From IMG/VR virus record IMGVR_UViG_3300034101_002081, positions 1-30,855 of that record: a stretch of 30,855 bases of DNA, one strand, 5' to 3'. This DNA is from a virus. This document shows positions 2,923 through 30,855 of the stretch, in pieces. The notes beneath the pieces were generated by a model. The model had not been told where the DNA came from and made no database searches. It saw nothing but the letters and a program-made list of their open reading frames with translations. Both the position numbers and the translations under genes were made by a program. Positions within the stretch are counted from its first letter, which is position 1. Each line of letters opens with the position of its first letter.

Positions 2923-5805
2923 TTACTGCGCTTCTCTTGTCCCAGCTGCACGCTGGCCCTTGGCCACCGTTTTGCCGTACCCTCGCGGACCTACCCAGTT
3001 GCGCAGATAGTCAGCCGGGAACTTCACCGCAGGCAGCGCCGGGGCGTGTGCGCACTTCGTGCACAGCATGCCGCCTGGCACTTCTGGAACGCGCAGCACG
3101 TGCGTAAGCGTCTGCGTCTCGCAGAACGGGCAGGTGCGCAGCCACACGCGGCGCCCTTCTTTGCCACGTGCATGCCACACTTCGCTGCGGCGCAGGACCG
3201 GGTCATGTTGCACGCAGTGGTCTGGTTTGTCGCTGCCTTTGCCTACCACCAGTTCAATACCCAAGCCGCGCACCGCACCGCCTTCTGCTAGATCGGGTGC
3301 AATGGTTTCCAGCAACGTCTGCCAGTCCATGCCTTTGCGCCCAGCGGTGCGTACTGCCTGCACAGCGCTGCGTGCCATGGTCGCGTCGTCTGCACACCAG
3401 GACAAGCCCCACTTGCTTTCTACGTCCACGTACGTCTTTACAATGTGGGCCGCGTACTCCTTGGTGACGCCGGTTGGCGCCTGGAACTTCGTGCCGTTCG
3501 CGTCTGCGTCAATGGCTGCCCACAATACGCGGCGCACGTCTGCCACCGGGCAGTCCACAATGGCGGTGCGCAACTGCTTGGCGGGGAACAAGCCGGTGGC
3601 TTGCAGTTCTTCCGCAATGCGGCGCCGCGCAATGCCTTCCGTAACGTTGGCGTCAGCTGCAACTTCTTGCAAGCTCTTGCCGTCGCGCATGAAGCCGGTT
3701 AGCAAAACGTCCCGGCGAAGTTCACCGGCTACACGTACGCGGTTCTGTGCGCGGAACGTGATAGGTCCCAACTCAATGGGGCCTTCGTCAGTGGTGCCAA
3801 GCAGAACGTACACGCTACCGTCTACGTACAAGCCGTCAGTGCTCACAGCGAAGCGCAAGCCGCGCAGCATGATACGAAGCGCAACGTTTAGCTTGGCCGG
3901 TGCCTGGTACTCACACTCACGCAGCAGCGCCATGGCTGCGGCAAGATCGTCCAACACCGCCGCCGCTTCTTTCGTTAGCGGTGTGCTGGTCTGCACAGCG
4001 CCGTGTGCGTCCGCCACTTCTTTCTCTGCTGTGCGCAGGTCATGGTCTGCCGCTTGCTTCACGCCCAGGGCAGCCAGGTAACCAGCGCGGTTGGCGTCGT
4101 TGTCGTCAGCGTCCAGCAGCTGCTGCGCTGCTTCAAAGCGGAAGCCTGCTTGCCGTACCGCCTTCTCTGCTACTGCCAGTTTCTCCTTGGCGCGCTGTAC
4201 CGCTTCCTGGGCCGCTGCGGTGCCGTCTACGCCTGGGCGGGCGTTGGGGCGGCGCACCTGGGTGCCGTGTTTGTCGATAGCTTCCACGATCGCTGTTGCC
4301 ATGTTGCGGTGTAGTTCTGCGGGGTCAATGGTGGCCACCGTTTCGCTGTTCTTGTAGTTCCAGCCAGCACGACGTCCGTGCCGCACAGCAGCCGCCAACG
4401 TGCGCCGGGCAAGTTTGTAGTTGATACCGTAGCGCGCGGTGAGCTGCCAGGCGTAGGTTTCGTCTTCCCACTCTGACAGGCCAGCCAGGGGGCGCCGGTC
4501 CGTGTTGCTTGCCTGGCGTCCCTGTGGCGTGCGGTTGCGCACCATGGCACGCGGGTCGCGCTTCTGGCGGCATTTCGCCATGGTCTTCTTGTCTACCCAA
4601 ACGCCGCCGGGCAAGATCGCGTTACCGTCTTCGTCCAGTTCGTCATGATGGAACGACAGCTCACGGGTTACGAAGGTCTGCCCACCTATGCGCTTGTAGC
4701 TGTCGGTGTCGTCCATGCGCAACTGGTCATGTTCTACCGCCACGCGGCTGGTGTAGGTGTACGTGCCGGTTTCGAAAAGGTCCAACTGCGCCCACAGGCT
4801 GCGCACCGCATTCTCTGGGTGTTCCATGTCCATAATCGTGGCTTTGGGGTTGCCCAGGCGTTGGCGCAACGTGGGGCTGCCCCAGCCATGGACTTCTGCC
4901 AACTTCTTCGCAATGTCCAGGTCACTCATGTTGGTGGCGCCCCAGGTAAGCAGGTCGCGCACGACGGGTACCATGGCCTTGTCAGGCACCGGGGTGCGGT
5001 CCACTCTACGCGCCCCTGGTGCAGTCTTGCGGAACGTGTAGCCCATACCAGGCAGCGCTTCCCAGCTCTTGGGGTAATGCCCACGTGCCAGGGTGCCAAG
5101 CACACCGCGCGTCAAACGTTCCACGGTGTAGTCGCGGTCATTCACGCTTTCATCGATCCAGCGCACCATTTCCTTCTCTGCTTCCGCCGGTGCTTTGGTG
5201 AAGTCAATGGGGCGGCGCGAATACGGGAACACTGCGGTGCCAACGTCGCGCAGCGCGTGCATAAGTTCCTGCCCATGCGGGCGGCTGCGCATAAGTCGGG
5301 TAACTGGCCCCGTGTACAAGTTGCGGACACGGTGCGCTTTGATGATGTTTGTAAGGTGCTTCGTAAAGTCGTTGGTGTCGTCCAGGTTCGTCTTCGTTGC
5401 ACTGAACAACGACAGCAAGAACGCGGTACCTTCCACCACCAGCAAGTACCCAACGACGCTGCGCCCAGCACCACCGTACAACGTCATGGCGTTGTATTGC
5501 GCGCGCAGTTCCTCGCCTGCTGTTGTACGTGCCAACAACTTCGCGCCGTGGCCCAGCACAATGTCCACGCCGGGAATGGTGCCACGGTACGGCTGCAAGC
5601 CCAACTGCATAAGTTCGTCCATTTCTGCGTGTGCGCCTTTATCGCTTTCGCGGAACGTGAACAGGTACTCATACAAGTCACCGCTGGTGCCCACCTGGGC
5701 GTCCAGCAGCTGCTGGCGTGCCATGGCTTCGCGCTGTGAGGTTGTGATACGACCACGCTTGGGGGTGGTTCGCTTGCTGGTCTGGGGGGTGGTGGTGTCT
5801 TTCAT
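2923..5805 (-). CDS. Very large divergent serine-recombinase-like protein, probable integrase
   Basis: This 960-residue protein probably catalyses site-specific integration and excision. Residues 1-45 are basic and polar. TFRESDKG (50-57) fits the R-x-S active-site pattern, with S54 the candidate nucleophile. LYTGPVTRLMRSRPHGQELM (163-182) fits the conserved arginine motif, with R170 and R173. Residues 205-360 resemble the recombinase domain: an E/R-rich helix, PGMGYTFRK, a valine-proline segment and a repeated L/I pattern. Residues about 540-640 are coiled-coil-like. A second cysteine-pair finger (CPFC at 892-895, CTKC at 915-918) is at the C-terminus. Large serine integrases are usually 450-700 residues, so this one is long and the finger is unusually distal. 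It lies near the dyad at 5849-5880, a candidate attP. The N-terminal match is weak; it could instead be an inactive or repurposed relative. Confidence 0.62.
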   Translation of the reverse strand: MKDTTTPQTSKRTTPKRGRITTSQREAMARQQLLDAQVGTSGDLYEYLFTFRESDKGAHAEMDELMQLGLQPYRGTIPGVDIVLGHGAKLLARTTAGEELRAQYNAMTLYGGAGRSVVGYLLVVEGTAFLLSLFSATKTNLDDTNDFTKHLTNIIKAHRVRNLYTGPVTRLMRSRPHGQELMHALRDVGTAVFPYSRRPIDFTKAPAEAEKEMVRWIDESVNDRDYTVERLTRGVLGTLARGHYPKSWEALPGMGYTFRKTAPGARRVDRTPVPDKAMVPVVRDLLTWGATNMSDLDIAKKLAEVHGWGSPTLRQRLGNPKATIMDMEHPENAVRSLWAQLDLFETGTYTYTSRVAVEHDQLRMDDTDSYKRIGGQTFVTRELSFHHDELDEDGNAILPGGVWVDKKTMAKCRQKRDPRAMVRNRTPQGRQASNTDRRPLAGLSEWEDETYAWQLTARYGINYKLARRTLAAAVRHGRRAGWNYKNSETVATIDPAELHRNMATAIVEAIDKHGTQVRRPNARPGVDGTAAAQEAVQRAKEKLAVAEKAVRQAGFRFEAAQQLLDADDNDANRAGYLAALGVKQAADHDLRTAEKEVADAHGAVQTSTPLTKEAAAVLDDLAAAMALLRECEYQAPAKLNVALRIMLRGLRFAVSTDGLYVDGSVYVLLGTTDEGPIELGPITFRAQNRVRVAGELRRDVLLTGFMRDGKSLQEVAADANVTEGIARRRIAEELQATGLFPAKQLRTAIVDCPVADVRRVLWAAIDADANGTKFQAPTGVTKEYAAHIVKTYVDVESKWGLSWCADDATMARSAVQAVRTAGRKGMDWQTLLETIAPDLAEGGAVRGLGIELVVGKGSDKPDHCVQHDPVLRRSEVWHARGKEGRRVWLRTCPFCETQTLTHVLRVPEVPGGMLCTKCAHAPALPAVKFPADYLRNWVGPRGYGKTVAKGQRAAGTREAQ

Positions 5806-5936: not shown

Positions 5937-6146
5937 TCAGTTCCGGGGCTTTTTGCTCGGAATGTCAGCCACGAATACGGTGCCCTGTTCCCGGTCCAAG
6001 ATCGCCCAGAAGCCAGCCTGCTGCAAAGTGATGAGTGCGCTAACGGGGTCGTAGCTGTTTACTGCCACCATGTCGCGGGTTAGTTGCTTTATCGCCGGTG
6101 CCGGGCCAATGGCACGCCGCACGTTTGCCAGCAGTTCGCTCTTCAT
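5937..6146 (-). CDS. Hypothetical protein, 69 residues
   Basis: The protein starts MKSELLANVRRAIGPAPAIK and ends with a basic KKPRN tail. It has a helical first half and a possible beta strand segment near 46-60 (FWAILDREQGTVFVAD). No family is recognised. The ATG at 6146 follows AGGGGCGAGAA, a plausible SD, and overlaps the end of the zinc-ribbon gene by four bases (ATGA), so the two are probably translated together. It is the last gene of the replication and regulation block before the recombinase. Confidence 0.62.
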   Translation of the reverse strand: MKSELLANVRRAIGPAPAIKQLTRDMVAVNSYDPVSALITLQQAGFWAILDREQGTVFVADIPSKKPRN

Positions 6147-6661
6147 TTCTCGCCCCTGGTGAAACGAATGGGGCGCCCCGGTGTCTTGCCTTCTGCTACT
6201 CTCTCCTTGCGCAGGTTTGCGTTTCGTTCGCGTCGCTTTGCTTCCTTGCTCTTGCCGCTGCGGTCCCTGGTGAGTGGCGGCAAACCAGCAGCTGCACGTT
6301 CAGCAGCACGCCGCTCTCTTGCTGCTGCGTTCACCGCGTCGCGCTTCTCTTTGTCAGCGTAGTACCTGAGTGTGTGTACCGTGTCCGCTATCTCTGTGCC
6401 TTCACACACGCGGCAAAGGTCTGCCATGCCGTCGTCTGTTAGGTTAGTGGGCCGCCAGTGGGCCGCCGTGCTCGCCTTGTGCTGTTTGCAGCACGGGCAC
6501 GTCCTGGTGCCGTCTTGGTTGTTGATTGGCTGTTCCACCACGATGTTGATACCGGCCAGGGCATAGTACGCCGCCAAGCGCTCCACGTTGATACCTTCCA
6601 GCTCTGCCACTTCCCTGTCTACCCAAATGTTGGGCGTTGTTCTTGCGTTGTTTGATCCCAT
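6143..6661 (-). CDS. Zinc-ribbon protein with long charged helix
   Basis: About 172 residues from the ATG at 6661. A four-cysteine zinc ribbon is made by CPCCKQHK and, about 30 residues on, LCRVCEG. After it comes a long helix rich in R, A, E and K, ending in a basic tail. The N-terminal part (IWVDREVAELEGINVERL) looks like a small helical domain. Similar ribbons precede nuclease domains in some phage proteins, but no HNH or endonuclease VII residues are visible, so I do not assign an activity; nucleic-acid binding is likely. The start is uncertain: the frame continues to a GTG at 6706, and neither start has an SD. Its stop overlaps the following 69-residue gene. Confidence 0.6.
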   Translation of the reverse strand: MGSNNARTTPNIWVDREVAELEGINVERLAAYYALAGINIVVEQPINNQDGTRTCPCCKQHKASTAAHWRPTNLTDDGMADLCRVCEGTEIADTVHTLRYYADKEKRDAVNAAARERRAAERAAAGLPPLTRDRSGKSKEAKRRERNANLRKERVAEGKTPGRPIRFTRGEK

Positions 6662-6773
6662 GCCAGTGGACGGTGCACCGGGGCGCAGCCAGGACACACG
6701 CCCCACCAGGGGCGCCAGGAGCCTCTCTACGGGCCGCTGCGGGCCGCCTGGGGTGTTGGGTGCCCTGGGGCCT
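6662..6773. other. GC-rich gap with several short inverted repeats
   Basis: These 112 bases lie between the second sigma-like gene and the chosen start of the zinc-ribbon gene. They contain GGGGCG/CGCCCC (6680-6685, 6699-6704) and CCCC/GGGG arms around 6701-6712. No T-run follows, so a classical terminator is not supported. Part may be coding if the GTG at 6706 is used. Confidence 0.35.
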
Positions 6774-7223
6774 TTACAGGGCTTCCAGAAGCTCCTGGGA
6801 CAGGCTCACGGGCTTGGTACACCGGCGCACTGCCGTCAGGCGCTCCAAGGTCCAGCCAAGGGCTTCGCAGGTCTCTCTATCGCCTGGTGCGTGCTCCTGG
6901 CACGCAACGCTGCGCTGGTAGCGTTCCAGCACCAGCCGGTCCTTCTCTAACCTTACCGCCCAGGGCTGCTCTTTTCGCAGGCCGTCCAAGATGGCGCCGC
7001 GAATGCGTGGCACCGCGTACGTACTGAACGCCAGGCCGCGCTCTGGTTCGAATAACTCTGCCGCACGCCGCAGGCCCATGTACCCATACCCTACCATGTC
7101 GTCTGCTTCACGGTCATGGTTCTGCGCCATGTTGTTAGCTACGTGATACACCAGGCGCACGTTCGCGTCAGCCAGCTGCTTCGCTGCCTCGCCGCCTTGC
7201 ACGTTCTTGCGTCGCTTTCTCAC
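6774..7223 (-). CDS. Sigma-70-like protein lacking region 4
   Basis: 149 residues. Residues 20-85 match sigma region 2 of the FliA/SigB type: NVRLVYHVANNMA, then DDMVGYGYMGLRRAAELFEP and RGLAFSTYAVPRIRGAILDG. This region binds core RNA polymerase and the -10 element. Residues about 90-145 resemble region 3, with EALGWTLERLTAV as a possible helix-turn-helix. No region 4 is present, so -35 recognition in the usual way is not expected. It follows a complete sigma-like gene with a GTGA overlap, so the two are co-translated. It could be an alternative sigma factor for extended -10 promoters, a partner of the first sigma, or an inhibitor that occupies core polymerase. The basic N-terminus MRKRRKN is unusual. 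Family call is firm for region 2; role is not. Confidence 0.8.
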   Translation of the reverse strand: MRKRRKNVQGGEAAKQLADANVRLVYHVANNMAQNHDREADDMVGYGYMGLRRAAELFEPERGLAFSTYAVPRIRGAILDGLRKEQPWAVRLEKDRLVLERYQRSVACQEHAPGDRETCEALGWTLERLTAVRRCTKPVSLSQELLEAL

Positions 7224-8053
7224 AGCAAGCCGTCCAGGGGGTGGCGCAGCGCAGGGTGGCGTAGCTTACTGAGCGCGCTTGTCTCAATGCGCCGCATAGC
7301 CTCGGCACTAACACCATACCGGCGCCCCAACTTGCTCAACGTTTCACGTTCCACGCCTTCAAAGCCGAACCTGGACAACACCACGGCACGCTCCACGTCG
7401 TCCAGTTCGTCCAAGGCCTTCGCCAGAAGCGCAGCACGTTCGTCGTGCAGCAGCTGCTCGTCCGGGGCTGGCATGCTTTCGTCCGCTATTAGCTCTTCGT
7501 ACGTTGTTGGTTGTGTTGGGTCTGTCTGTGGTCGATCTTCGCGCAGCGGTTCGTCCAGCGAAGCGCCCACCGTTGGCAACTGCTCAAACGTGCGTGTGTC
7601 CCCAGCGATAGCAGCGCGCTCTGCCTGGCTGAACTTTCGCCCAGCCACCGCTTCCAGCTCTGCAATACGAATAGCTACCAGGGCAGCCTCATTAGCAACC
7701 GCTTCTGGTACCTTGATCGTGCGTTGCGCGTCCACCGCCTTCGTTAGCGCTGTGGTAATGTACCGGCGCGCGTAGCCGAAGATACTGCCCCGGTCAGGCT
7801 GCCAACGTTCCACCGCCTGGGTGAGTGCCAACGCACCGGTGGCGAAAATGTCCTCGGTGGTTAGTCGTTTTTCGTAGCCCTTACCAATGTGCAACACCAG
7901 GCGCAGGTGCCGCTCTACCAGTTCTTCCTTGATGGCTTGTTTGCGCTTCTTGTCTGCTGTCTTCCACTCGGCAGCCAGCTGCTTCTCCCGCTCTTCTGTC
8001 AATGGTTCAAAGCGTGGCTCACCAAGTCGCAGGTGTAGTGGTTTCGTGCTCAA
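7220..8053 (-). CDS. Sigma-70 family RNA polymerase sigma factor
   Basis: 277 residues with the core sigma regions. Residues 45-112 are region 2: ERHLRLVLHIGKGY, then LTTEDIFATGALALTQAVER and RGSIFGYARRYITTAL. Residues 115-165 resemble region 3, followed by an acidic linker to about 205. Residues 207-270 are region 4: ALDELDDVERAVVLSRFGFE, TLSKLGRRYGVSAEAMRRIE and SALSKLRHP, the helix-turn-helix that binds -35 elements. It should direct host core polymerase to phage promoters. The start is TTG at 8053, overlapping the helicase stop (TTGA); no ATG fits better. It stands immediately before a second, shorter sigma-like gene. Promoter specificity cannot be read from sequence. Confidence 0.87.
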   Translation of the reverse strand: MSTKPLHLRLGEPRFEPLTEEREKQLAAEWKTADKKRKQAIKEELVERHLRLVLHIGKGYEKRLTTEDIFATGALALTQAVERWQPDRGSIFGYARRYITTALTKAVDAQRTIKVPEAVANEAALVAIRIAELEAVAGRKFSQAERAAIAGDTRTFEQLPTVGASLDEPLREDRPQTDPTQPTTYEELIADESMPAPDEQLLHDERAALLAKALDELDDVERAVVLSRFGFEGVERETLSKLGRRYGVSAEAMRRIETSALSKLRHPALRHPLDGLL

Positions 8054-9657
8054 TATGGATCACCGCCGCGCTCTCCTTTCACGTCGTCTGCATGCACCAG
8101 GCCCAGGTCTGCCTTGTACAGCTTCACAAGCGCCAAGGTCTCCTCACGTCCCACCTTCTGCGTTGCTACCCAGCCGTTGGTTTGCAAAAACTCAAACGCT
8201 TTTGTGATCGTCTCACCGCGCCAGCCTTTGCCGCCATTCTCACGTCTGCGCTTGTTCAGTGCTTCGCGCAGGTCTGTCTTTGCAGTCGGCTGCCCATAGT
8301 CTTGCAGCACCTTGCACAGCTGTTCAGCTGCTATCAAGTCCCAGCGCTTTTCAGCAGCCTGCTCTGCTGCTGTCTCTGGTGACAATAGCTCCAACTTGGT
8401 GCACTCCACGACGTTCGTGGGTTGTGGCGTGCTCACCAACGTACCGGCCAAACGTTTACCGCTACGTGAAGATACTTGCACCCTACCAGGGCGGTCCTTC
8501 ACCAGCCAAAGGTCCACCTCTCCACGTGTCCAAGCACTGCCTGCTTGCCGTACTTCTGCCATGAGTGCGGTACCGCTCACAGCTGCAAGTTTCGCACCGC
8601 TACCACGTGGTGAACGTCCCGCGTAGCTACCGGCTGCCGCCTGGTTGTTCTTTACAGTGTGGTCTACGCACAGCACACCGGCACCGGCATGCACCAAGGG
8701 CCACACGTTGCCAGCAAGCCACAGCGACACGTCCCGCGCTTTATCTTCTTCTAGTGGTGGGGTGTGGCTGCCCATAGCTGCCGCTACGCCGTCCAGGACA
8801 ACGAAGGGCACACTTTGGCCGCGCACTACGCGCAAGATTTGCGCACGGTCAGCCGTTGATAAGCCGCCGGTGGCTGGCCGATAGTAAAACAACCGAGGCT
8901 GCGTGTCGCTACCTTTGAACCAGGCGCGCACCGTGTCCAGGCTATGGCCGCGCCCCAGGGCAATGCTGCACACGCGTTCTGTGCAACTGGTTCCGTCTGC
9001 TTCTTCAAAGTCCAGGTAAACAACCGGCTGCCCTTCTTCCATGAGCTGCACGCAGCAAAGCTTGGCCAACCAGCTCTTCATGCTCTCGGGCGGCGCTGCC
9101 AGCCACGAAAGCCTACCCTGGTACAAAAGCGCAGCGCCGTCGTTCCGTTTCAGCAACGTTGGTTCAAGCTTGCGGTGTGTGCCTGACACGATCGCGTCCA
9201 ACACGCTCCCAAGGTCTGCCCAGCCTTCGCGGTTAGTCTCGCCAATACCTGCAAGTTTGTCCAAGTCTTCAATAGGGTCGCCGCCCTCTGCCAACGTGCG
9301 CGCAACACGTGCAGCAGCCGCTGCCTGATCGCGCTTGCGGGCAAGGTCCACCAGAACGGTAGCAGCTTCTACAACCTCTGCCGTGCTTTTTTTGCCTTTG
9401 CTCTCCAAGTACGTAATAGCGCGGTCACCGCCAACTGCTTCCAGCTCACCGGCTGCGCGCAAGTCTTCAACCAGGGCAACGCTTCCTTGCTTGCCTGCCA
9501 TCGTGATACGGCACAGCGCTGAATACACGACACCGGCACGCGGGTCTGCAAAGTCCCCGGCGCCAAGTTTTTCCACGATCGCGTCCAGCGCGTCAGCGTT
9601 GCGAATGCAGCTACCAAGTACCAACTGCTCCGCTGCTGTGTTTGTTAGGTGCTTCAT
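8050..9657 (-). CDS. Replicative helicase-like protein: DnaB N-terminal domain plus RepA-like ATPase
   Basis: 535 residues. Residues 5-85 match the DnaB N-terminal domain (AAEQLVLGSCIRN, then DFADPRAGVVYSALC). Residues 175-400 match RecA-fold RepA/AAA_25 ATPases: the P-loop is the non-canonical AAPPESMKSWLA (187-198), YLDFEEADG follows, and PFVVLDGVAAAMG (284-296) is Walker B. The C-terminal 130 residues look like a winged-helix domain (DLREALNKRRRENGGKGWRG). It probably unwinds or loads at the phage replication fork. No DNA polymerase or primase is recognised in the window, so host enzymes would be used. A strong SD (AGGAGAAGGT) precedes the ATG at 9657, which overlaps the rusA stop. The first glycine of the P-loop is alanine and the glycine before the lysine is methionine. 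Confidence 0.82.
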   Translation of the reverse strand: MKHLTNTAAEQLVLGSCIRNADALDAIVEKLGAGDFADPRAGVVYSALCRITMAGKQGSVALVEDLRAAGELEAVGGDRAITYLESKGKKSTAEVVEAATVLVDLARKRDQAAAAARVARTLAEGGDPIEDLDKLAGIGETNREGWADLGSVLDAIVSGTHRKLEPTLLKRNDGAALLYQGRLSWLAAPPESMKSWLAKLCCVQLMEEGQPVVYLDFEEADGTSCTERVCSIALGRGHSLDTVRAWFKGSDTQPRLFYYRPATGGLSTADRAQILRVVRGQSVPFVVLDGVAAAMGSHTPPLEEDKARDVSLWLAGNVWPLVHAGAGVLCVDHTVKNNQAAAGSYAGRSPRGSGAKLAAVSGTALMAEVRQAGSAWTRGEVDLWLVKDRPGRVQVSSRSGKRLAGTLVSTPQPTNVVECTKLELLSPETAAEQAAEKRWDLIAAEQLCKVLQDYGQPTAKTDLREALNKRRRENGGKGWRGETITKAFEFLQTNGWVATQKVGREETLALVKLYKADLGLVHADDVKGERGGDPY

Positions 9658-11060: not shown

Positions 11061-11660
11061 TCAGTTTCTGCGCATTTGCTGTAACCAGTCAGCCAGGCCG
11101 GTGTCAAACTCGGCCATAGCCTCCTGCGCCCATGCTCGCCACCGGCGCGCTTCTACACGACTACACCTGGTTATTCTGCGAATGTCGCGCAGGCTTGCAC
11201 CGTCCATAACCGCAAGCAGCACGCGGTCCCGGTGCGTGTCTTGCCAGTGCGCAACCAAGCCAAGCAGTTCGTTCAGTGCCTGCCACTCTGTTTCTTCAAG
11301 TCCTATTTGGTCAGCCAGCTCTTGCGGGTGCTGCCCTTGTAGCACCATCGTCAGAAACGCGCGCAGCTTCTCAACGCCCATTTCCCCGCCCCACAAGCCG
11401 GTGCCACTCAACGCTGCACAGAACGGCATGGCTGGCACTTCCAAATACCCAGCTATGCGTGCAATAGTCAAAGGGTCAGCCTGGTACGGGTTGAGCGCAG
11501 CACCCAGGGCACGAAGCGCGAAACGTGCACGTTCCACTGCGTCGAAAGCGTCCAGGCTGGTGGCACGTACTTCGCGCAACACACGCACAACGTTAGCGGT
11601 ACCTACTTCACCCAGCAGTGGGCTGGGATCTTCCAAGAAGAAGTCCAGGCCGTCGTTCAT
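11061..11660 (-). CDS. Regulator-like protein with C-terminal HTH-like segment
   Basis: 199 residues with no recognised family. The N-terminal half is helical and mixed. Residues 112-130 (PQELADQIGLEETEWQALNE) and 152-175 (GASLRDIRRITRCSRVEARR) look like two helix-turn-helix segments, the second more convincing. The C-terminus is helical. It follows whiB with an ATGA overlap (11657-11660) and precedes recT, so it is probably co-transcribed with both. It may be a DNA-binding regulator or replication accessory protein; no catalytic motif is visible. Confidence 0.6.
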   Translation of the reverse strand: MNDGLDFFLEDPSPLLGEVGTANVVRVLREVRATSLDAFDAVERARFALRALGAALNPYQADPLTIARIAGYLEVPAMPFCAALSGTGLWGGEMGVEKLRAFLTMVLQGQHPQELADQIGLEETEWQALNELLGLVAHWQDTHRDRVLLAVMDGASLRDIRRITRCSRVEARRWRAWAQEAMAEFDTGLADWLQQMRRN

Positions 11661-11890
11661 GCTTCCACCGCCTTCACGTACGCAGTACGTTCTGCTGGTC
11701 CAAGTCCTCCACGAATACCCAAGCGCAGCGTGCTCCCTTCCTCAAAGGACAGGCAGTCGTCCAGGCACTGCGCACGCACCGGGCACAGCAAGCACAGGGT
11801 TACAGCCCTTCGTCCTTCTATCGTAGCACGCCCTGCAAAGAACGGGGCTACGCCCTTACCCTTGCACGCTGCGCGGTCTCGCCAGGTCAT
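11657..11890 (-). CDS. WhiB-family iron-sulfur transcription regulator
   Basis: 77 residues with the complete WhiB signature: C9, C33, C36 and C42 to hold a [4Fe-4S] cluster, PVRAQCLD around 37-44, and a G-rich turn GIRGGLG (58-64) followed by a basic stretch. In cellular members the tryptophan form (G[VI]WGG) binds region 4 of the principal sigma factor; here the position is arginine. The family is restricted to Actinobacteria and their phages, which is the best host clue in the window. Phage homologues are known to alter host transcription. It opens the replication/regulation block and starts six bases after a TGCACTGCT copy of the recurrent motif, with no SD. A role in controlling or assisting the sigma proteins of the same block is inference. 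Confidence 0.87.
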   Translation of the reverse strand: MTWRDRAACKGKGVAPFFAGRATIEGRRAVTLCLLCPVRAQCLDDCLSFEEGSTLRLGIRGGLGPAERTAYVKAVEA

Positions 11891-18002: not shown

Positions 18003-18406
18003 TACTTACCACCTCCCTGCGGGTTTACTCTTACGCCCATACGTAGCATCTCCTTGTAAGTAGTGCCGCGCGGACGTTGCGGTGTTTCCCGGTCTCCTGG
18101 GCGTGGAATGTGCAGCGGGTCAGGTAGCCGCGCGCCTGGCTTACTGTGCGCTTGCAGGTACAAGCGGCGCAGGCTGTCCAGCAGTTCCGCGTTCAGTGCA
18201 AGCAGTTCTTGGTCTGTTGACCAGCTGTTGCCCATGCTGCGCCATAGCGCTGCGTCTGGTGGTAGCCACTGCACCAGCGACAAAATGCGCCGCGCCGGTG
18301 TGTTGCGCACGTACAGCTCTTCGCCCAGGTCTTTCTGGTAGTATCTGGCAAAGTCTGCCTCAAGTGCTGGGTAGTGCTGGCGGACAATGGCCGCCAGCCC
18401 TGTCAT
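18002..18406 (-). CDS. Tail assembly chaperone, second product (T-type extension)
   Basis: These 134 residues, from MTGLAAIVRQHY to QGGGK, are probably made as the C-terminal part of a -1 frameshift fusion with the upstream protein, giving about 231 residues. The T part is helical with an R/P-rich end, and would bind the tape measure during tail assembly. A free ATG exists at 18406, overlapping the upstream TGA, so separate translation is possible. The open frame extends to 18499 but its upstream part is antisense-like noise. It overlaps the tape measure gene by one base. Confidence 0.75.
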   Translation of the reverse strand: MTGLAAIVRQHYPALEADFARYYQKDLGEELYVRNTPARRILSLVQWLPPDAALWRSMGNSWSTDQELLALNAELLDSLRRLYLQAHSKPGARLPDPLHIPRPGDRETPQRPRGTTYKEMLRMGVRVNPQGGGK

Positions 18407-18696
18407 TTTCCCTGGTCGATGTTGTACAGGTCTCCAATACCTTCCAGCAGTGTGCGCATGTCTTCCACTGTTGGGCGAAGTTTCGCAAAGGAGTCCCACT
18501 GCTTACCAAGCAACGCCTTGATAGCTTCTACTGCGGAAGCAGCGGTGCCCAGGCTTGCAGCTTCTGCAACTGCCCAGGGAAGTTCAGCGGGCAGTTTCCA
18601 GTCCTTTCCGCCAAAGCGGACAGTAGGCGCGCTGCCTTGGGCTGCCTCACGTGCTGCCCTGGCCGCGTCTAGATCAACGACGCGGCTGGTACTCAC
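18403..18696 (-). CDS. Tail assembly chaperone, first product (G-type)
   Basis: 97 residues beginning with GTG that overlaps the tail tube stop (GTGA). It is helical with an Asp/Ala-rich start (VVDLDAARAAREAAQGSA) and contains FGGKDWKLPAELPWAVAEAA. Its order between tail tube and tape measure is that of the frameshifted chaperone pair of lambda-like tails. It ends in a slippery sequence followed at once by TGA, so a fraction of ribosomes would shift -1 into the next frame. Confidence 0.8.
   Translation of the reverse strand: MSTSRVVDLDAARAAREAAQGSAPTVRFGGKDWKLPAELPWAVAEAASLGTAASAVEAIKALLGKQWDSFAKLRPTVEDMRTLLEGIGDLYNIDQGK
18406..18412 (-). other. Programmed -1 frameshift slippery site
   Basis: Minus strand reads G GGA AAA in the frame of the first chaperone, an exact X XXY YYZ heptamer, directly followed by TGA. 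A slip of one base puts ribosomes into the frame beginning ATG ACA GGG. It stands at the expected boundary of the two chaperone frames. Confidence 0.82.
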
Positions 18697-30403: not shown

Positions 30404-30409
30404 GGGGGT

Positions 30410-30418
30410 AGCAGTGCG
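30410..30418 (-). promoter_or_regulatory. Start-associated motif before the HNH gene
   Basis: Minus strand reads CGCACTGCT, six bases (ACCCCC), ATG. It has the GCT variant also found before whiB. Confidence 0.65.
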
Positions 30419-30465
30419 GTTAGGTCGTGGTTTCTGTCCGTTTCAGGGGCCGGGGCTGCTGTTGT

Positions 30466-30513
30466 CATTTTCCCTTCCGCGCCCTTCCTAAGGGAAGGGG
30501 CGCCGGGAAAATG
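30466..30513. repeat. 48-base hairpin with CATTTTCCC/GGGAAAATG arms
   Basis: The outer arms CATTTTCCC (30466-30474) and GGGAAAATG (30505-30513) pair perfectly. An inner stem GCGCCCTTCC / GGAAGGGGCGC with one bulge closes on the loop TAAG. It lacks a T-run in either direction. Confidence 0.75.
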
Positions 30514-30522
30514 AGCAACGTA
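30505..30522. repeat. Direct repeat unit A (GGGAAAATGAGCAACGTA)
   Basis: It matches 30585-30602 (GGGACAATGAGCACCGTA) at 16 of 18 positions. Both copies are followed by a GGGGTTT-containing stretch, so the two blocks look like degenerate copies of one unit. Confidence 0.65.
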
Positions 30523-30568
30523 CGCAAAGCCCTGCAAACGTTGGGGTTTGTGTGGGTGGGGGTGCTGA

Positions 30569-30602
30569 CGTTTTCCCAGGCTTTGGGACAATGAGCACCG
30601 TA
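30569..30602. repeat. Second dyad and direct repeat unit B
   Basis: CGTTTTCCC (30569-30577) and GGGACAATG (30585-30593) are inverted relatives separated by seven bases. The right part is the second copy of the 18-base direct repeat. Confidence 0.55.
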
Positions 30603-30670
30603 GTTGCTGGGGTTTCGTGTTGCACGCTGGTGGCGTGGCACCGCATGCCTGTGGCGTGTGCGTGCTTCTC

Positions 30671-30689
30671 GGGAAAGTGTGGGAAAATG
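30671..30689. repeat. Tandem GGGAAAGTG / GGGAAAATG pair
   Basis: GGGAAAGTG (30671-30679) and GGGAAAATG (30681-30689) stand ten bases apart in the same direction, like iterons. The same bases appear at 25-43 in the left terminal copy. Confidence 0.6.
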
Positions 30690-30702
30690 AAGCCGGGGCT
30701 GG

Positions 30703-30855
30703 TTAGGCTTGCAGCGCTGCGCAGGTGCTACGCCCAGCCCAGCCGTCTACTTGCAGCCCCTCGCGCCGCTGGAGCTGCCGCACCGCCTCTGTCGTCTTGG
30801 GGCCGTACGCGCCGTCAGCTCCGCCAGGCACGTCTATGCCCTTCGCCATAAGTGC
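30703..30855 (-). CDS. Partial second copy of the endolysin C-terminus
   Basis: It equals 57-209 and codes for the end of the peptidoglycan-binding domain, truncated at the window edge. The mismatch changes residue 230 from Phe (TTC) to Leu (CTC) in the otherwise canonical VRQFQ segment. It is the same gene seen twice because of the circular overlap, not a second endolysin. Confidence 0.88.
   Translation of the reverse strand, partial: ALMAKGIDVPGGADGAYGPKTTEAVRQLQRREGLQVDGWAGRSTCAALQA

Follow-up and report, generated by a model that had tools for sequence, protein, structure and literature searches.

What use has a phage with a genome of some 30 kb for two adjacent sigma-70-like genes, one of them complete and the other ending before region 4? 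The stretch of DNA analyzed here (the window) is an IMG/VR record of 30,855 bp whose minus strand carries two sigma-like genes, S1 and S2, in tandem; the original prediction had given their coordinates without a strand. The record is classed as linear, and its ends (positions 1 to 209 and 30647 to 30855) share 209 bp in direct overlap at 99.5% identity, from which we take the genome to be complete, circular or circularly permuted, with a length of ~30.65 kb. The stop codon of S1 and the start codon of S2 overlap in the sequence GTGA, as had been predicted, and S1 and S2 are hence probably cotranslated; the TTG start of S1 itself overlaps the stop codon of the gene for a DnaB-like helicase (Table 1). 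In one survey of phage genomes, 86.6% carried no sigma gene, 11.7% carried one, 1.1% carried two, and 0.7% carried three (PMC9429907); the view that a full sigma factor is uncommon in a phage is therefore upheld as far as rarity goes, given the 86.6% of genomes without one, but extreme rarity is not.

Table 1. Features of the sigma locus and its surroundings (positions are those of the window)
Feature	Position	Strand	Evidence
S1, complete sigma-70 factor, group 1/2 type, 277 aa, TTG start	7220..8053	-	Pfam regions 2 and 4; NCBIfam rpoS_proteo, E=4e-33; orthologues; AlphaFold and Foldseek
S1 region 2, residues 45-109	7727..7921	-	Pfam PF04542, E=3.5e-7
S1 region 4, residues 213-266, KLRHP at end	7256..7417	-	Pfam PF04545, E=1.5e-11; motif by alignment
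S2, truncated FliA/WhiG-type (group 3) sigma factor, regions 2 and 3 only, 149 aa, GTG start	6774..7223	-	PF04542, E=6.7e-16, sole Pfam match; FliA_WhiG best NCBIfam model; group-3 clade, support 0.99
S2 region 2, residues 18-86, including YAVPRIRGAILDGLR helix	6966..7172	-	Pfam and alignment
S2 region-3-like part, residues 87-136	6816..6965	-	Alignment to full-length group-3 sigma factors; model helices 87-107, 115-122, and 126-136
DnaB-like helicase/AAA ATPase, synteny anchor immediately upstream of S1	8050..9657	-	Pfam DnaB N-terminal domain and AAA_25; relatives
WhiB-like protein, upstream, same strand as S1 and S2	11657..11890	-	Pfam PF02467, E=5e-12
Cysteine-rich (zinc-finger-like) protein, downstream of S2	6143..6706	-	CPCC and LCRVC motifs
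960-aa protein, position of large serine recombinase in relatives	2923..5805	-	39% to G025 homologue

Both open reading frames are present where they had been placed, and Pfam and HMM searches agree that one gene is complete and that the other lacks region 4, with Pfam matches for both proteins that are far beyond chance. S1 is a full sigma factor of the group 1/2 type, with region 2, a region-3-like part, and region 4. Its matches to Sigma70_r2 and Sigma70_r4 are both above the Pfam cut-off and lie on one chain; its best NCBIfam models were those of RpoS and cyanobacterial RpoD/SigA, every one scoring below its own cut-off, and its best PHROG was PHROG 351. In the AlphaFold model (pLDDT, 84), region 2 and the region-3-like part are joined to region 4 by a linker of low confidence, and the model matches SigA and RpoS chains in Foldseek searches. 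The Trp-Trp pair of region 2.3, which acts in promoter melting, is absent from S1, which has YARRY in place of YATWW, and most S1 relatives carry R-W or R-Y at the position of the pair in the alignment; melting or choice of the -10 element by S1 therefore probably differs.

The predicted contrast between a principal-type first gene and a FliA-type second gene also stands, as FliA_WhiG is the best NCBIfam model for S2 (E=1.8e-18), with a score against TIGR02479 (FliA_WhiG) of 67.1 bits that lies below the family cut-off of 189.6. Region 4 gave no Pfam match in S2 even at E<=10, and a region-4 HMM applied to all six frames of the window detected S1 only (E=3e-32; next best, 0.17), so the missing region is not hidden by a frameshift. 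In a comparison with 396 bacterial genomes, all from the phylum to which an Acidimicrobiaceae genome belongs, S2 had its best matches at ~40 to 44% identity over regions 2 and 3, in longer frames, several of ~255 to 290 aa. In alignments, the YAVPRIRGAILDGLR helix of S2 region 2 is nearly identical to the -10 helix of bacterial FliA-type sigma factors, region 3.0 deviates from the FliA pattern, and the protein ends at about the point where region 3.2 starts in full-length group-3 relatives; S2 appears to have lost region 3.2 together with region 4 and to have kept region 2 and the region-3-like part. The codon bias of S2 (0.475 in frame, versus 0.36 to 0.53 for other phage genes and 0.13 and 0.26 for its own other frames) fits a phage gene. 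Its AlphaFold model (pLDDT, 77), like that of S1, matches sigma structures; a structural comparison had been proposed with the original prediction.

The two genes are not the halves of a single protein: a fused homologue of both frames was sought among the relatives, and none was found. A split caused by mutation or sequencing error is rejected, as S1 is complete, no region 4 follows S2 in any frame, and S1 occurs alone in relatives. In a FastTree phylogeny built over the columns of S2, S2 fell within a group-3 clade that contains bacterial FliA/WhiG sigma factors (support, 0.99), and the S1 proteins of the phage group formed one clade (FastTree support, 0.984). Because S1 (0.98) and S2 (0.99) lie in separate clades, the tree rules out that S2 is a duplicate of S1, and S2 is not a fragment of S1 either. 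Judged from the sequences, the genes are of different ancestry, S2 being best described as an accessory, truncated group-3 sigma gene inserted behind S1.

Orthologues of S1 were recovered from 13 other distinct uncultured phages, at 34 to 45% identity (alignment A7), and from two near-duplicate contigs. These relatives were reached by alignments, that of TerL leading to G025 and those of the helicase and S1 to further members of the group; scans based on short peptide patterns, with a reach limited to the collections searched, returned no close relatives for S1 or for the helicase as single proteins and, for S2, no more than two single-sigma contigs, both distant. The genome of G025, complete at 33 kb and with ends that overlap by 356 bp, agrees with the window in gene order (TerL, 70%; portal, 69%; DnaB, 61%); its helicase gene is followed by S1, a Cys-rich gene, and the gene for a 945-aa homologue, without S2. 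Nearest to the phage of the window are L005 (TerL, 98%) and L109 (DnaB, 74%). Conservation of the pair in related phages had been suggested as a check, and only S1 proved to be conserved, S2 being found neither beside S1 nor elsewhere in the 13 other S1-carrying phages. Pfam searches of whole relative records gave at most one region-2 match each, in a search that overlooked even S1 in G469, G470, and G474; an S2-like gene should have shown, because S2 scores 58 bits, against 21 to 47 bits for the region-2 matches returned.

The surroundings of S1 are also shared. In the contigs to which the helicase led (L110 to L116 and L118), a DnaB-like gene lies directly before S1; this is the set that the synteny covers, as distinct from contigs found through S1 only, such as L124, L127, L128, L129, L131, and L138. 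In the relatives, the next gene after S1 is small (Cys-rich, WhiB-like, or of another kind), and a large gene of the serine recombinase type often comes after it. The Cys-rich gene of the window and the G025 gene directly after S1 share their position and a weak sequence similarity, and in L124 a second WhiB-like gene (6801-7193) directly follows S1, at the place held by S2 in the window. The 960-aa protein of the window matched no Pfam family; for its G025 homologue the match to Resolvase is sub-threshold (E=0.025), and Resolvase and Zn_ribbon_recom matches occur in L111. Relatives of the protein stand at the position of large serine recombinases, a hint that the phage is, or once was, temperate. 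Elsewhere, sites resembling TCATTTTCCC with up to two mismatches number 11 in the window versus 3.9 expected. Several such boxes lie in a mostly noncoding stretch upstream of the packaging genes (30404-30855), possibly an operator, promoter, or terminator, beside a strong minus-strand hairpin (30455-30525; -38.2 kcal/mol; z, -6.1), and at 18376-18412, opposite the tail chaperone gene, a GC-rich plus-strand hairpin is followed by another.

A WhiB gene was present in 16 of 16 DnaB/S1-group records, a count that includes G058 and G067, which do not reach S1, and in 2 of 30 TerL or methylase relatives, 26 of which were found via TerL and four via the methylase (G010, G014, G019, and G022), none with a known S1. 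In a control set of 14 genomes, WhiB was found only in the single actinobacterium, and since the phage carries WhiB, its host is probably actinobacterial. The host is deduced from WhiB because scans of bacterial genomes for prophages found none, either with TerL or, among the 396 genomes of the phylum sampled, with the helicase. WhiB binds region 4 of SigA and needs Arg515 there, KLRHP being its docking site in mycobacterial SigA (PMC3905903). The arginine of KLRHP is kept in 12 of the 14 S1 proteins aligned; as this residue is a general feature of SigA as well, and as the co-occurrence of WhiB and S1 may reflect only a shared host and lineage, we put forward a partnership of S1 and WhiB as a proposal. 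The presence of WhiB in every DnaB/S1-group record examined suggests a sigma-WhiB pair through which small actinophages may take over the host polymerase, and a phage sigma factor paired with the phage's own WhiB is a candidate partnership that is directly testable.

The joint explanation that we prefer, and to which we give an even chance, is that S1 serves a group of WhiB-carrying phages as their resident sigma factor and that S2 is an accessory sigma factor or a displacer of host sigma factors; the mechanism that follows is one that we infer. S1 would bind the host core RNA polymerase and redirect it to phage promoters, and the phage WhiB would probably dock on region 4 of S1. S2, probably translated together with S1, would most likely bind the beta' clamp of the polymerase through its region 2 and, once there, would either recognize -10 or extended -10 elements without -35 contacts, in the manner of T4 gp55, a sigma-R2 protein that reads a -10-like element (PMC7892883), or displace host sigma factors. 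A more elaborate version, a two-tier system in which the phage WhiB, bound to region 4, sets the promoter choice of S1 and an acquired WhiG/FliA sigma factor without region 4 uses the -10 element only and reads or silences host developmental or motility promoters, strikes us as improbable when taken as a whole. A scan for sigma-70 promoters gave no excess over shuffled sequences. The FliA-type -10 element, taken as GCCGATAA, was not enriched in the phage genome when one mismatch was allowed, with 12 sites versus 12.1 expected, which counts against a specific use of such promoters in the phage. An active S2 would be a natural sigma factor of only 149 aa without region 4 and would offer a simple test of the minimum sigma needed to start transcription.

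Lacking regions 3.2 and 4, S2 may be unable to initiate, which would favor its being a competitor or a remnant. As a competitor, S2 would sit on the sigma-2 site of the core without being able to initiate and would lower the activity of host FliA/WhiG-type factors or SigA to the advantage of S1. The absence of the two regions, the failure of FliA-type -10 sites to be enriched in the phage, and the probable production of S2 together with S1 all speak for such a role, but the near identity of YAVPRIRGAILDGLR to FliA-type sigma factors, despite an overall identity of ~40%, suggests that DNA recognition still matters, and we consider the competitor somewhat unlikely. A lower probability attaches to the remnant, the idea that S2 was acquired as a bacterial sigma gene, is now decaying, and no longer has a function, a reading that accords with its occurrence in this phage only and its truncation before region 4 but that sits poorly with an open frame of phage-like codon bias, with a start that overlaps the S1 stop, and with core-binding and -10 segments that are intact in a protein that has diverged throughout.

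Two further readings are very unlikely. The adjacency and overlap of the genes had invited the idea of a divided sigma factor, with one protein on the -10 element and the other on the -35 element, like SigO-RsoA of Bacillus subtilis, in which two neighboring sigma-related genes include one without region 4 (PMC8103513). We reject it, as regions 2 and 4 are both in S1 and no half is missing, no separate region-4 protein is encoded, and the pair is not conserved, S1 standing without S2 in the 13 other phages and S2 having no conserved partner. In SigO-RsoA, sigma-4 and sigma-2 reside in separate proteins, whereas both are part of S1, which relatives carry without S2; because S1 is whole, SigO-RsoA is not a fitting model. 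Hardly more credible is a decoy role in which S2 would titrate a host anti-sigma factor of WhiG/FliA, of the RsiG or FlgM type, and so free the host factor. S2 does have the WhiG-type sigma-2 fold, and RsiG is in contact with both sigma-2 and sigma-4 (PMC8325347), but the sigma-4 contacts are absent from S2, and the Lys, Gly, and Arg residues of LVKYVAGR, through which WhiG sigma-2 contacts c-di-GMP, are Tyr, Asn, and Asn in S2 (S2 aligned with the WhiG-like L223; contact residues from PMC8325347). As the contact residues are not retained, a decoy for RsiG is rejected.

A literature search for sigma factors "lacking region 4" found no paper under that wording. The closest precedent is the cyano-siphophage P-SS2, with a group-2 sigma factor (ORF113) and a group-3 sigma factor (ORF003) (PMC2784084), the latter with no detectable region 4. 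The group-3 sigma factors of P-SS2, S-CBS2, and S-CRES1 (206 to 244 aa) have a Pfam region-2 match, sub-threshold in S-CBS2 and S-CRES1; SigF models match mainly their region 2-3 part, and Pfam reports no region 4. They are longer than S2 and SigF-like, whereas S2 is FliA/WhiG-like, and their grouping with S2 has weak support (0.755) and may be an effect of long branches. P-SS2 also has a genome of 107 kb in which the sigma genes are far apart, ORF003 following terL, whereas the pair in the window overlaps.

T4 gp55 and S2 are alike in being phage-encoded sigma-R2 domains without region 4, but gp55 acts together with gp33 and with gp45, the sliding clamp, whereas S2 adjoins a complete sigma factor and is recognizably of the FliA/WhiG type; no clamp or gp33 was named among the window open reading frames scanned against PHROGs, a scan that covered part of the small frames and that a divergent coactivator could escape. 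With bacterial group-3 FliA/WhiG sigma factors S2 shares region 2 with its RIRGAILDGLR helix as well as the region-3-like part, and it departs from them in stopping at about the start of region 3.2, in having no region 4, and in scoring below the TIGR02479 cut-off. S1 resembles the phage sigma factors that take over the host polymerase in being a complete, phage-encoded sigma-70 factor; unlike other phage sigma factors, it belongs to a monophyletic group in WhiB-carrying phages and has a region 2.3 without the Trp-Trp pair. Phage sigma factors are already known, and a tandem, overlapping pair that includes a truncated FliA/WhiG sigma factor in a 30-kb phage is a new and unusual variant of them.
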